DNA of 64,000 nucleotides, from contig NZ_JACHGE010000001.1 of NCBI RefSeq assembly GCF_014202225.1, forward strand, positions 291,320-355,319, given 5' to 3'. A program made the position numbers and the translations under genes. Positions within the stretch are counted from its first letter, which is position 1. Every line of letters starts with the position of its first letter. The notes beneath the pieces are model-generated. The model saw only the letters and a program-made list of their open reading frames with translations. It was not told the DNA's origin and did no database searches. This DNA is from Algibacter amylolyticus (lineage in GTDB: Bacteria; Bacteroidota; Bacteroidia; Flavobacteriales; Flavobacteriaceae). This document shows, piece after piece, positions 1,529 to 57,265 of this stretch.

Positions 1529-1559
1529 AAACTCCGGAAGCAATTTCGGAGTTTTTTTA
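1529..1559 (+). terminator. Rho-independent terminator of accC
   Basis: AAACTCCG at 1529-1536 pairs with CGGAGTTT at 1547-1554 around a 10-base loop, and the 3' arm runs into a tract of seven T. It lies 7 bases after the accC stop. The dispersed repeat described at 1561 starts at once after the T tract. Confidence 0.85.
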
Positions 1560-1560
1560 T

Positions 1561-1653
1561 GGCGTTACCACAAGGGTCGGGCTTTCCATTACAAGTCCTC
1601 GCACCTCCATTCGTCGGGCTGTGGGCTTTCCTCTGCAATCCCTAACGCGGGCC
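1561..1653 (+). repeat. Dispersed 3'-end repeat, copy 1
   Basis: The element starts GGCGTTACC, continues GGGTCGGGCTTTCC and ends CAATCCCTAACGCGGGC. The ends form an inverted repeat (GCGTTA and TAACGC). The inner part (ACAAGTCCTCGCACCTCC, then CGTCGGGCTGTGGGCT) is shared almost base for base with the minus-strand copy at 31664-31754. Other copies are at 12891, 44764 and 57136. Each copy follows the 3' end of a gene in that gene's direction, here accC. The rest of the 1522-1822 gap (1654-1822) shows no gene. Confidence 0.85.
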
Positions 1654-12123: not shown

Positions 12124-12885
12124 ATGAAGAAGAAGGTTGAATCTGAACTCGTTAGTATAGCACACAGGATTCTTAAATTAAAAGGAAAAGAAGATGTTTT
12201 AAAAATGCATGCTGAGGTTTCTGCGCTTTATGAGAAGCTTTCGGTCATGAAATTTGCTCACGAAAATTTTGAAGGCGATTTGCCAACCATTGGCAACGAT
12301 TCGTCCTTTTTTGGTATGTTAGACACGGCTTTCAACAATAAAGTAAGCGATAATATAGAGGTTGAAGATAAAATTTATGTAAACCTTGATGCGGTTGAAG
12401 AGGATGATATTATGGAGCCTGTAATGAATAAAATTAAAGATATGGTTGCTTTTATGCCAGAAGAAACTGAAGAGGCCGAACAACCTAATGCGGCAGCCGA
12501 AGAGGATATCTTTGTGCCTAAAACACCAGAAAAACAACAAAACATAGAAGATATTACTGCGGGGTTTGGAGACATTCCTGTTTTTGAGCCTGTTTCTAAT
12601 TCACAAAACGGCGTGCCTCCTAATGGTAAAAAATCCTTGAATGATAAGCTTAAAATTGGCGGGTTAAACATTGGGTTAAACGATAAAATTGCATTTATTA
12701 AGCACTTATTTGATGGTAAAAGTGAAGATTACGATCGTGTTTTGTCGCAATTAAATACATTTGTAACCTATGAAAATGCCAAAAACTTTATTGTACAAAT
12801 GGTTAAACCAGATTATAATAATTGGGAAGGAAAAGAGGAGTTCGAAGAGCGTTTTATGCACATTATAGAAGCAAAGTTTAATTAA
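12124..12885 (+). CDS. Conserved hypothetical protein of Flavobacteria
   Basis: I recognise no domain. The 253-residue protein is soluble and acidic. It has a helical N-terminus (residues 1-50), an acidic low-complexity middle (EETEEAEQPNAAAEEDIF, about 115-132), a Pro/Asn-rich linker, and a helical C-terminal block from about 175 containing GLNDKIAFIKHLFDGKSEDY and PDYNNWEGKEEFEERF. There is no signal peptide or membrane helix. It diverges from tdk and is followed by a degenerate copy of the dispersed 3'-end repeat. Confidence 0.75.
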   Translation: MKKKVESELVSIAHRILKLKGKEDVLKMHAEVSALYEKLSVMKFAHENFEGDLPTIGNDSSFFGMLDTAFNNKVSDNIEVEDKIYVNLDAVEEDDIMEPVMNKIKDMVAFMPEETEEAEQPNAAAEEDIFVPKTPEKQQNIEDITAGFGDIPVFEPVSNSQNGVPPNGKKSLNDKLKIGGLNIGLNDKIAFIKHLFDGKSEDYDRVLSQLNTFVTYENAKNFIVQMVKPDYNNWEGKEEFEERFMHIIEAKFN

Positions 12886-12890
12886 TATTT

Positions 12891-12986
12891 GGGTGTTACC
12901 GCGCAGAAAAAGCGCGGTCGTGCTTTTCATTCATAGTTTTGGCTCGATGCGCGCCTCGCCAAAAGCTAACCATTTCAATCACTAAC
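12891..12986 (+). repeat. Dispersed 3'-end repeat, degenerate copy
   Basis: GGTGTTACC is followed by a GCGC/GCGC mini-hairpin, then GGTCGTGCTTTTC, a hairpin with TTTTGGC and GCCAAAA arms, and CATTTCAATCACTAAC. The order of blocks is the same as in the copies at 1561, 31664, 44764 and 57136. It starts 5 bases after the stop of the hypothetical gene and reaches to 2 bases before the rsmI start codon, so it forms the whole intergenic region. Confidence 0.65.
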
Positions 12987-12988
12987 AC

Positions 12989-13663
12989 ATGAGTAAACTA
13001 TATATAGTTCCAACACCCATTGGAAATTTAAAAGACATCACCTTAAGGGCGCTTGAAGTTCTAAAAGATGTCGATTTAATTCTAGCCGAAGACACCAGAA
13101 CCTCAGGAAAACTCTTAAAACATTTCGAAATTTCAACTCACATGCAGTCGCACCACATGCATAATGAGCATAAAACGGTTGAAAGTATAATTCAAAAATT
13201 AAAAAGCGGAACTACCGTGGCGCTAATTAGCGATGCGGGAACACCAGCCATTTCAGATCCCGGGTTTTTACTATCGCGTGCCTGTATTGAAAATGGTATA
13301 GAAGTAGATTGTTTACCTGGAGCCACAGCATTTGTGCCGGCATTGGTAAATTCTGGATTGCCAAATGATAAGTTTGTGTTCGAAGGTTTTTTACCTGTTA
13401 AAAAAGGCCGACAAACACGGCTTTTGCTTTTAGCAGAAGAAACTAGAACTATGATTTTTTACGAAAGTCCGCATAAACTAGTAAAAACCTTAGGGCATTT
13501 TTGCGAGTATTTTGGAGAAGAAAGACAAGTATCGGTTTCAAGAGAATTAACAAAACTATTTGAAGAAACCATTCGAGGTACAGCCAAAGAAGTATTAGAA
13601 TATTATACCAATAAACCTCCAAAAGGCGAAATTGTTGTTATTGTTGGAGGAAAAGTTAAATAG
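12989..13663 (+). CDS. rsmI: 16S rRNA (cytidine(1402)-2'-O)-methyltransferase
   Basis: RsmI uses SAM to methylate the 2'-OH of C1402 in the ribosomal decoding centre. The 224 residues have the tetrapyrrole-methylase fold motifs: YIVPTPIGNLKDITLRAL at the N-terminus, LILAEDTRTSGKLL, ISDAGTPAISDPG near 85, and VSRELTKLFEE in the second half. It lacks the extra C-terminal domain of longer homologues, which is normal for this phylum. A HopJ-family gene follows 15 bases later on the same strand. Confidence 0.95.
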   Translation: MSKLYIVPTPIGNLKDITLRALEVLKDVDLILAEDTRTSGKLLKHFEISTHMQSHHMHNEHKTVESIIQKLKSGTTVALISDAGTPAISDPGFLLSRACIENGIEVDCLPGATAFVPALVNSGLPNDKFVFEGFLPVKKGRQTRLLLLAEETRTMIFYESPHKLVKTLGHFCEYFGEERQVSVSRELTKLFEETIRGTAKEVLEYYTNKPPKGEIVVIVGGKVK

Positions 13664-17915: not shown

Positions 17916-18964
17916 TGGCTTATTATTTAAATTCATTTCCGGGAAATCATATTTCAATCCAAAAGGAAAACTATCTTTATTTTGGTGGTACTGCCTATTT
18001 AGGTTTGCAAACCGATGTTGATTTTCAAAATATATTTATTGAGAATATTAAAAAGTACGGCACTAATTATGGTGCATCGCGTAAATCAAATATTCGTATT
18101 TCTATTTATGATGAAGCTGAAGCCTATTTATCTCAACTAGTAGGAAGCGAAGCCTGTATTAGTTTGTCTTCGGGGTATTTAGCGGGGCAACTTGTGGCTC
18201 ATGGTTTGAATACTAAAAAACATGGTTTTTTTTATGCACCAAATACACATTCGGCGTTAAGTTTATCAACAAGCAAAAGCCAATCGTTTTCAACGTATCA
18301 AACTTTAAAAGAAGCATTACATGTTCATTTAAAGCAAAAGCCAATCGAAATACCAGTTGTGTTTTTAGACGCTATAGAATTTTCAGGAAATAACTTTCCC
18401 GATTTTAAAGGCTTGAAATCCTTACCGCTTTCAGAACTTGTTTTGGTAGTTGATGATTCGCATGGTTTAGGTATTATTGGAGAGCACGGTGGCGGTGTTT
18501 ATAAAACCATTAAAGATTTAAACCCAAAGGAACTTATAGTTTGTGGCTCTTTAGGAAAAGGGTTCGGTGTTCAGGCTGGTGCTATTTTTGGTTCTAAAAG
18601 CAGAATCTCTTCTTTAGAAAGTACAGCCTTTTTTGGAGGCTCTAGTCCTGCCTCTCCTGCTAATTTGGCTACTTTAATTCATGCTGAAGAGATTTATAAA
18701 ACCAAGCGAAAACAACTAGAATATAACACAACCTTTTTTAAAAAACACTTGGATTCGCTTAATAAATTTCAATACATGGAAGGTCATCCTGCTTTTAGTT
18801 TTATAGATGAAGATCTTAATGATTACCTAGAAAGCAATCGTATAATAGTAACAAGTTTTAGGTACCCAGATATAAACTCGCCTATGATGAGTCGAATAGT
18901 TATAAGTGCAGGACATACTGAAGCTGATATTTTAAAGCTATGCAACGTTTTAAATGGCATGTAG
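17915..18964 (+). CDS. PLP-dependent aminotransferase family protein (AONS/KBL-like)
   Basis: The 349-residue fold-type I PLP protein resembles 8-amino-7-oxononanoate synthase and 2-amino-3-ketobutyrate ligase. It has NYGASRKSNIRIS near 51-63, DDSHGLGIIGEHG (180-192) with the PLP-ring Asp/His, and the Schiff-base Lys at about 215 in GSLGKGFG. At 349 residues it is shorter than true BioF. No biotin gene is nearby, and the one-base overlap with the dipeptide epimerase points to a murein or amino-acid role, which is inference. Confidence 0.8.
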   Translation: MAYYLNSFPGNHISIQKENYLYFGGTAYLGLQTDVDFQNIFIENIKKYGTNYGASRKSNIRISIYDEAEAYLSQLVGSEACISLSSGYLAGQLVAHGLNTKKHGFFYAPNTHSALSLSTSKSQSFSTYQTLKEALHVHLKQKPIEIPVVFLDAIEFSGNNFPDFKGLKSLPLSELVLVVDDSHGLGIIGEHGGGVYKTIKDLNPKELIVCGSLGKGFGVQAGAIFGSKSRISSLESTAFFGGSSPASPANLATLIHAEEIYKTKRKQLEYNTTFFKKHLDSLNKFQYMEGHPAFSFIDEDLNDYLESNRIIVTSFRYPDINSPMMSRIVISAGHTEADILKLCNVLNGM

Positions 18965-44763: not shown

Positions 44764-44875
44764 GACGCATGCCTGCCGATAGGCAGGTTACCACAGGGGT
44801 CGGGCTTTATGCTATATCTTTTTTTGCCATTTGTGGCAGCAAAAAAAGGATGCCGCGGCAATCCCTAACGCGGGC
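44764..44875 (+). repeat. Dispersed 3'-end repeat with inserted CCTGCC palindrome
   Basis: The block order is GGACGC, a hairpin GCCTGCC/GGCAGG, TTACC, GGGTCGGGCTTTATGC, then TATATCTTTTTTTGCCA and TGGCAGCAAAAAAAGGATGCC as a hairpin, and CAATCCCTAACGCGGGC. It starts immediately after the queD stop in the queD direction. Compared with the copy at 1561, a 16-20 base palindrome splits GGCG from TTACC and the inner variable hairpin is different. Confidence 0.8.
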
Positions 44876-57135: not shown

Positions 57136-57265
57136 GGGCGCCTGCCTGCCGGCAGGTTACCCGAAAAGGGTCGCGCTTTCCATTATATCTTTTAAATAAA
57201 AAAAACTGCTTTTAAGGCAGTTTTTTTTATTTAAAAGGATGCCATTTCAATCGCTAAGGCAGGTG
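57136..57265 (+). repeat. Dispersed 3'-end repeat with terminator as inner hairpin
   Basis: The blocks are GGCG, the palindrome CCTGCCGGCAGG, TTACCCG and AAAGGGTCGCGCTTTCC, then ATTATATC, a long hairpin, GGATGCCATTTCAATCGCTAAGG. The order matches the copies at 1561, 12891, 31664 and 44764. It starts 14 bases after the pyk stop in the pyk direction. The rest of the gap up to 57423 shows no gene. Confidence 0.75.
57190..57236 (+). terminator. Terminator of pyk, inside the dispersed repeat
   Basis: TTTTAAATAAAAAAAACTGC and GCAGTTTTTTTTATTTAAAA are exact reverse complements (20 bp each) around a 7-base loop. The 3' arm carries eight T. It occupies the variable hairpin position of the repeat. Confidence 0.85.

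Follow-up and report, generated by a model that had tools for sequence, protein, structure and literature searches.

Five structured repeats within a 64,000-nucleotide stretch of DNA from Algibacter amylolyticus (the window, by which we mean the whole of the stretch analysed) belong to the Rfam family Flavo-1 (RF01705), and on balance we regard Flavo-1 as a dispersed, non-autonomous DNA element of the mobile type rather than as a small RNA gene. The element is present in many copies, its stems covary, a T tract lies at one end, orthologous sites are found both empty and filled, its tips turn over, smaller palindromes are nested within it and copies reside on plasmids. The DNA-element reading accounts for the number of copies, their mixed orientation and their modular tips. 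With rather more doubt than belief, we also put forward a wider proposal, that Flavo-1 is a new class of mobile single-stranded DNA element of Bacteroidota: a three-way-junction hairpin that would insert behind T tracts, travel on conjugative plasmids of gut Bacteroidales and serve as the site where smaller REP-type palindromes prefer to land, repeatedly rebuilding its tips. Were this true, one abundant Rfam 'small RNA' family would not be an RNA gene family. The DNA-element reading would correct annotation across Bacteroidota and would supply a test bed, in the form of repeated palindrome insertion at two defined hairpin spots, together with a mobiliser to seek, for example on plasmids.

Identity and distribution

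The five repeats had been located in an earlier note on this DNA, and their places and strands were confirmed with R1, a covariance model built from 38 copies of the same genome, none of them inside the window, which at E<=1 matches the window at these five places only. The repeats and the features directly associated with them are as follows; the terminal modules are described below.

1531..1558, plus strand: accC intrinsic terminator (hairpin and T tract), directly before copy 1; from sequence
1560..1648, plus strand: copy 1, terminal module B; R1, 90.6 bits
1562-1567 with 1643-1648, plus strand: outer stem of copy 1; from stem reading
12891..12988, plus strand: copy 2, between an ORF ending at 12885 and rsmI starting at 12989; R1, 58.6 bits
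31668..31755, minus strand: copy 3, terminal module B; R1, 82.9 bits
31755..31786, minus strand: sodA terminator-like hairpin and T tract, directly before copy 3; from sequence
44764..44871, plus strand: copy 4, terminal module A, one base past the queD-like stop codon; R1, 77.2 bits for 44781-44871
44772-44787: nested palindrome in the outer stem of copy 4; from sequence comparison
57136..57260, plus strand: copy 5, long AT-rich terminal hairpin; R1, 46.7 bits for 57154-57260
57141-57156: nested palindrome in the outer stem of copy 5; from sequence comparison

Two of the five, copy 4 (51.5 bits) and copy 5 (56.7 bits), exceed the Rfam gathering score, both on the minus strand and so opposite to the strand of the earlier note. 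The Rfam model covers a single arm (P3 below), on that other strand, and misses P1, P2, the module B copies and the plasmid copies. Across the whole genome (4.35 Mb in 25 contigs), in which asd is closest to that of Algibacter luteus (94%), it gives at least 77 matches at E<=1e-3, 41 of the 77 being over its cut-off, and R1 gives at least 145 copies at E<=0.01. Among 40 relatives searched with the Rfam model, at least 26 have matches in a patchy distribution, and ten of ten genomes of the genus carry Flavo-1, with at least 25-57 copies each. R1, applied with stricter filters to 247 Bacteroidota genomes, matches at least 37, of which 11 belong to other orders of the same class and 3 lie outside the class.

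Flavo-1 was described by Weinberg in 2010 as a likely RNA that is not cis-regulatory (PMC2864571), its Rfam entry is typed as an sRNA gene, and a 2022 review ranks it with the most abundant small-RNA families of bacteria (PMC9029176). In a transcriptome of F. psychrophilum from 2021, matches to Flavo-1 are sense or antisense to transcribed regions and many fall outside any, while several 5' transcribed regions coincide with the element; the authors had no explanation for it (PMC9723704). Within the literature searched, mostly outside subscription journals, we found no description of Flavo-1 as a mobile repeat and none linking RAYT to names beginning Flavobacter-.

A folded element with exchangeable tips

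About 85-170 bp in length, the element starts in this genus with TTTGGGCG and, on the strand of the earlier note, runs in the order TTTGG, the 5' side of P1 (GCGTTA), the variable side hairpin P2 (CC..GG), TC, the 5' side of P3 (GGGCTTTCCRYTA), a terminal module, the 3' side of P3 (CCRYTKCAATCCC) and the 3' side of P1 (TAACGC). Strong covariation indicates that this order would fold as a three-way junction of outer stem P1, side hairpin P2 of variable length and long arm P3. P1 occurs as GCGTTA/TAACGC, GCGCTA/TAGCGC, GCGCAA/TTGCGC, GCATTA/TAATGC, GGGTTA/TAACCC and others, including GTGTTA/TAACAC in copy 2, where the side hairpin is long (CCGCGC..GCGCGG); P3 contains two conserved 3x3 internal loops and an invariant T.G wobble. 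Among 59 distinct alignment rows (of 64, picked for at least five of six P1 pairs and the TC linker, at least three rows having a misplaced P1), both sides change in 16 of 20 pairs, and the 180 covariation cells compare with a shuffled mean of 56, none of 500 shuffles being as high; because rows were picked for P1 pairing the covariation of helix 1 is biased upward, the other helices not having been so picked. The T.G pair adjoins the terminal module and is kept in 59 of 59 rows, even as the pairs next to it interchange (A-T with T-A, C-G with G-C). The predicted fold rests on this covariation, since the RNA folding energies of copies 1-3 are no better than those of shuffles (z of 0.46, -0.75 and 0.84); the other two copies give -1.97 and -5.11. 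When G.U pairs are compared with A.C pairs, P1 favours the strand of the earlier note (9 against 0) and two RY pairs favour the other (0 against 16). L127 and L134, two of the 77 Rfam matches, were excluded both from the survey of the element's parts and from this strand comparison.

The terminal module is of three recurring kinds. A contains ..GCCATTTATGGC..; in B the P3 motif appears a second time as a near-copy; C is a long tip that is near-unique to its locus. Long tips were found in 13 copies of the genome (57-88 nt as trimmed), with no match elsewhere in it better than E=0.02, and they have no match to phages. We rejected the idea that module C tips are captured spacers because homologous tips are carried by Flavo-1 copies of relatives, some with a GTCATTGCGAGGAG..GTGGCAATCTG palindrome. 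The earlier note was right that the element is conserved and folded, its stems showing compensatory changes, and right about the swapped inner hairpin and the side hairpin (ACC..GGT). That note had held that copies in both orientations relative to upstream genes, together with stems devoid of compensatory changes, would count against its reading; both orientations occur, as described next, and so do compensatory changes.

Position and orientation relative to genes

All five copies in the window lie past the 3' end of an ORF on the same strand (accC stop, 1521; ORF end, 12885; sodA on the minus strand, 31813; queD-like stop, 44763; pyruvate kinase stop, 57121). NCBIfam identifies these neighbours as biotin carboxylase accC, superoxide dismutase, a QueD-like protein and pyruvate kinase; a family search gave no match for the ORF preceding copy 2. 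A terminator hairpin with its T tract directly precedes the copy at accC and sodA only. The accC terminator is conserved at the orthologous loci L163-L166, and also at L168 and L170, which have no element.

Orientation proved to be mixed. ORFs were defined here by a length heuristic, no gene caller being used. On that basis the ORF upstream has the same sense as the element for 50 of the 77 Rfam matches listed in this genome, and for 40 of 58 copies with defined ends and both neighbours (p=0.005; 64 of the 77 had usable ends, 13 being dropped, from which 5 within heuristic ORFs and 1 with no downstream ORF were removed). This bias is real though weak, and tandem gene pairs alone show 22 sense copies against 12 (p=0.12). 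For 19 other genomes the best copy of each was taken: 5 of 17 have an upstream ORF in sense, the remaining 2 copies lying inside ORFs (by class, -- 11, ++ 5, -+ 1 and 2 in ORFs). Hence the claim that the repeat always follows the direction of its gene does not hold beyond the window, and the five of five seen there are a local sample from the weak bias.

The T tract is the more regular feature. TTT stands directly to the left of 43 of 64 elements and to the right of 7 of 64, and the left-hand tract is found in every class of gene pair (++ 17/22, +- 11/18, -- 8/12, -+ 5/6) as well as beside 15 of the 19 best copies from other genomes. Where the upstream ORF is in sense, the left end falls 3-20 nt past the stop codon in 19 of 40 copies. 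Convergent gaps hold 18 copies and divergent gaps 6, even though divergent intergenic DNA exceeds convergent in the window (1508 against 1110 nt). A hairpin below -6 kcal/mol lies to the left of 11 of 64 copies, compared with 9 on the other side and 7.3 expected, and as folding energy ahead of the element does not stand out clearly from background in this genome we discounted the terminator hairpin itself as the target. In two other Flavobacteriales (G028 and G036), a hairpin below -8 kcal/mol stands ahead of 12 of 20 chosen copies; these 20 take the form T tract, (A)GGA, GCT.., ..GGGGCTA, with variants. Six of the seven copies in G036 (L243-L247 and L249) run into a shared tail of ~300 bp, comprising a short frame starting MIFKNIN and a strong hairpin, after which different genes follow.

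Orthologous sites and nested palindromes

Site 1 is filled in the window and at L163, L164 and L166, the tip differing from one to the next; the site is degenerate at L165, and L168, L170 and L231 lack the element. Site 2 is filled in the window and at L163, L166 and L172, nearly empty at L235, and empty at L164, L167 and L174; in these last three the stop codon of the upstream ORF and the start of rsmI overlap. No clear target duplication was found at empty sites, one of which allows 2 bp.

When 32 of the 64 copies were compared with nine genomes of the genus, 20 copy-genome pairs representing 17 copies were readable among the matches listed (both flanks listed, or a spanning hit); 19 were filled and one was empty, so recent movement is rare. 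Seven of the 19 filled pairs differ in length by 20-74 bp, and in the aligned pairs listed either palindromes have been added in the outer stem, the P2 loop or one spot in P3, or the tip has been replaced. In 15 pairs between this genome and G002, identity is 97.3% in the backbone (803/825), 91.8% in the tips, 94.6% in the right flank and 95.5% in the left flank.

CCTGCCNGCAGG palindromes occupy 15 genomic sites, 13 of them in or beside an element: ten lie in a copy or within 18 nt of one (by eye), three are in further copies (R1 E=4e-7, 0.0014 and 0.063) and two are elsewhere. Among the sequences compared, the palindromes recur at two spots, GGGC^GTTACC and CTATA^TCTTTT. A second palindrome, ACCTGCGAGGTTT..AAAACCTTGTAGGT, is found in 17 places, 4 of them inside copies.

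Copies on plasmids

When one Flavo-1 copy served as the query, 76 Bacteroidales plasmid records matched, 1 at 80% identity and 75 at 60-80%, and 48 of the 76 are typed as conjugative; against phage records the same query gave no match. Plasmid p5482 carries two copies (L342:31047-31128 and 18644-18725), and in NZ_CP041397 the match begins at the final base of a recombinase gene. The Rfam model, run at E<=0.1 on two plasmid stretches, found nothing. Further elements of Flavo-1 type lie on Bacteroides plasmids at L343:4001-4077 and L345:1941-2017, and three of these four copies (the two at L342 and those at L343 and L345) stand shortly before a gene for an ArdC-like ssDNA-binding protein.

Comparison with known systems

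REP elements have a tetranucleotide of GTAG/GGAG type before the hairpin. The GTAG form is described in PMC3733652; GGAG precedes the element at many copies in G028 and G036, and TTTGGGC does so in the genus of the window. REP/BIME repeats are short, palindromic and intergenic, of high copy number and often near gene ends, with conserved mismatches (PMC3733652, PMC6006769), and Flavo-1 resembles them as a dispersed, short, palindromic intergenic repeat; it differs in its greater length, in its three-way junction and in that no cognate Y1/RAYT gene was found flanked by it, either in this genome or, over the Rfam cut-off, at 20 Y1 loci. MITEs have terminal inverted repeats and a target duplication; in Flavo-1 the P1 stem is a 6-bp inverted repeat, and a 2-bp duplication would be compatible with one empty site.

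Class C group II introns insert immediately 3' of the T tracts of terminators. Flavo-1 likewise lies just 3' of a T tract, but it is far smaller, has no intron domains or reverse transcriptase that we could see, and in this genome its T tract need not follow a terminator hairpin; by eye, we rejected an intron. Integron attC ends read RYYYAAC on the 5' side and GTTRRRY on the 3' side. Flavo-1 has GTT on the 5' side and AAC on the 3' side on both strands and was, also by eye, rejected as an attC.

Alternative explanations

That Flavo-1 is a true structured RNA, whether a small RNA or an untranslated-region element present in many transcripts, is the sense of its Rfam entry and of the 2010 description as a likely RNA (PMC2864571), and would agree with the strong covariation, with the T.G pair kept in 59 of 59 rows and with the F. 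psychrophilum 5' transcribed regions that coincide with it (PMC9723704). Yet orientation is mixed in this and in other genomes, the same transcriptome has sense and antisense copies and many untranscribed ones, and for three of the five window copies the RNA fold is no better than that of shuffled sequence; we think this reading unlikely. We hold it very improbable that the element stabilises 3' ends or serves as a backup terminator in line with the direction of the upstream gene, one of the readings put forward in the earlier note: the five of five in the window and the 19 of 40 left ends close behind a sense stop codon would fit, but there is no fixed orientation to the upstream gene, TTT is found in every gene-pair class, the same three RNA folds match shuffles, and a good terminator already precedes the element at some sites, as do the strong terminator-like hairpins before 12 of the 20 copies in G028 and G036. 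The last alternative offered in that note, a mobile element targeting terminators, fits best, in the form of a mobile element landing by T tracts.

Selected sites for protein binding or single-strand structure have been proposed for REP/BIME repeats and for plasmid leading regions. Flavo-1 may similarly be a DNA site under selection, spread by recombination and now mainly functional, a reading that we also judge improbable. The backbone, more conserved between species than flanks and tips, would suit a selected function as well, whether of a DNA site or of an RNA; the conserved P3 mismatches, the 19 of 20 readable orthologous pairs that are filled and the position beside an ArdC-like ssDNA-binding protein gene on conjugative plasmids point the same way, whereas the patchy occurrence between genomes (at least 26 of 40, and at least 37 of 247), the freedom with which tips turn over and the want of a known protein speak against it. 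The mobile DNA element that we prefer occupies non-coding gaps and has a short T tract on its left, and this accounts for its nearness to stop codons and terminators whichever way transcription runs; in place, its hairpin tips undergo replacement or are invaded by smaller palindromes, the basal stems being kept. From the conserved mismatches, tip turnover, one-sided T tract and empty sites we infer that it may move as single-stranded DNA, mobilised by a trans-acting enzyme working on the folded strand, and that at empty sites the difference may have arisen by movement rather than by loss.

Search for a mobilising gene

No mobilising gene was found, the sole Y1 domain of the genome sitting within a restriction-methylase-like gene. 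This Y1/RAYT-like domain gene (L032:6304-10212, minus strand) has Flavo-1 copies 126 bp and 796 bp away, on either side. At L032 and L321-L324 the Y1-bearing gene encodes a large PglX-like or type IIG methylase-restriction protein with Eco57I, MmeI and TaqI_C domains. Copies occur on both sides of such genes within about 1.4 kb in three of five genomes (L032, L322 and L323, not L321 or L324), three that are not independent because the loci are orthologous or related. Among 20 loci with Y1 matches, none has Flavo-1 over the Rfam cut-off and one has it by R1, and two genomes of the genus (G005 and G007) have Flavo-1 and no Y1 match. With no linked RAYT in the genome of the window, these results do not support RAYT as the mobiliser.

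Four genomes of the genus have a single ORF that joins a RAYT-like Y1 domain (NF047646, E about 1e-13, below cut-off) to the coproporphyrinogen III oxidase HemF (PF01218), as follows.

L325:5613-7238, plus strand: RAYT-HemF ORF (NF047646 and PF01218)
L326:5318-6943, plus strand: RAYT-HemF ORF (NF047646 and PF01218)
L327:4550-6118, minus strand: RAYT-HemF ORF (NF047646 and PF01218)
L328:5353-6831, plus strand: RAYT-HemF ORF (NF047646 and PF01218)

Upstream of these ORFs are one or two palindromes of the GACCTGCGAGGTTT..AAAACCTTGTAGGTCT type, relatives of ACCTGCGAGGTTT..AAAACCTTGTAGGT. At L063, L065, L066 and L083, in other Flavobacteriales, Y1 transposase genes are ringed by short repeats of their own, for example GTCCCGTAGGGAC or AGCTCCGTAGGAGC, which are unlike Flavo-1.
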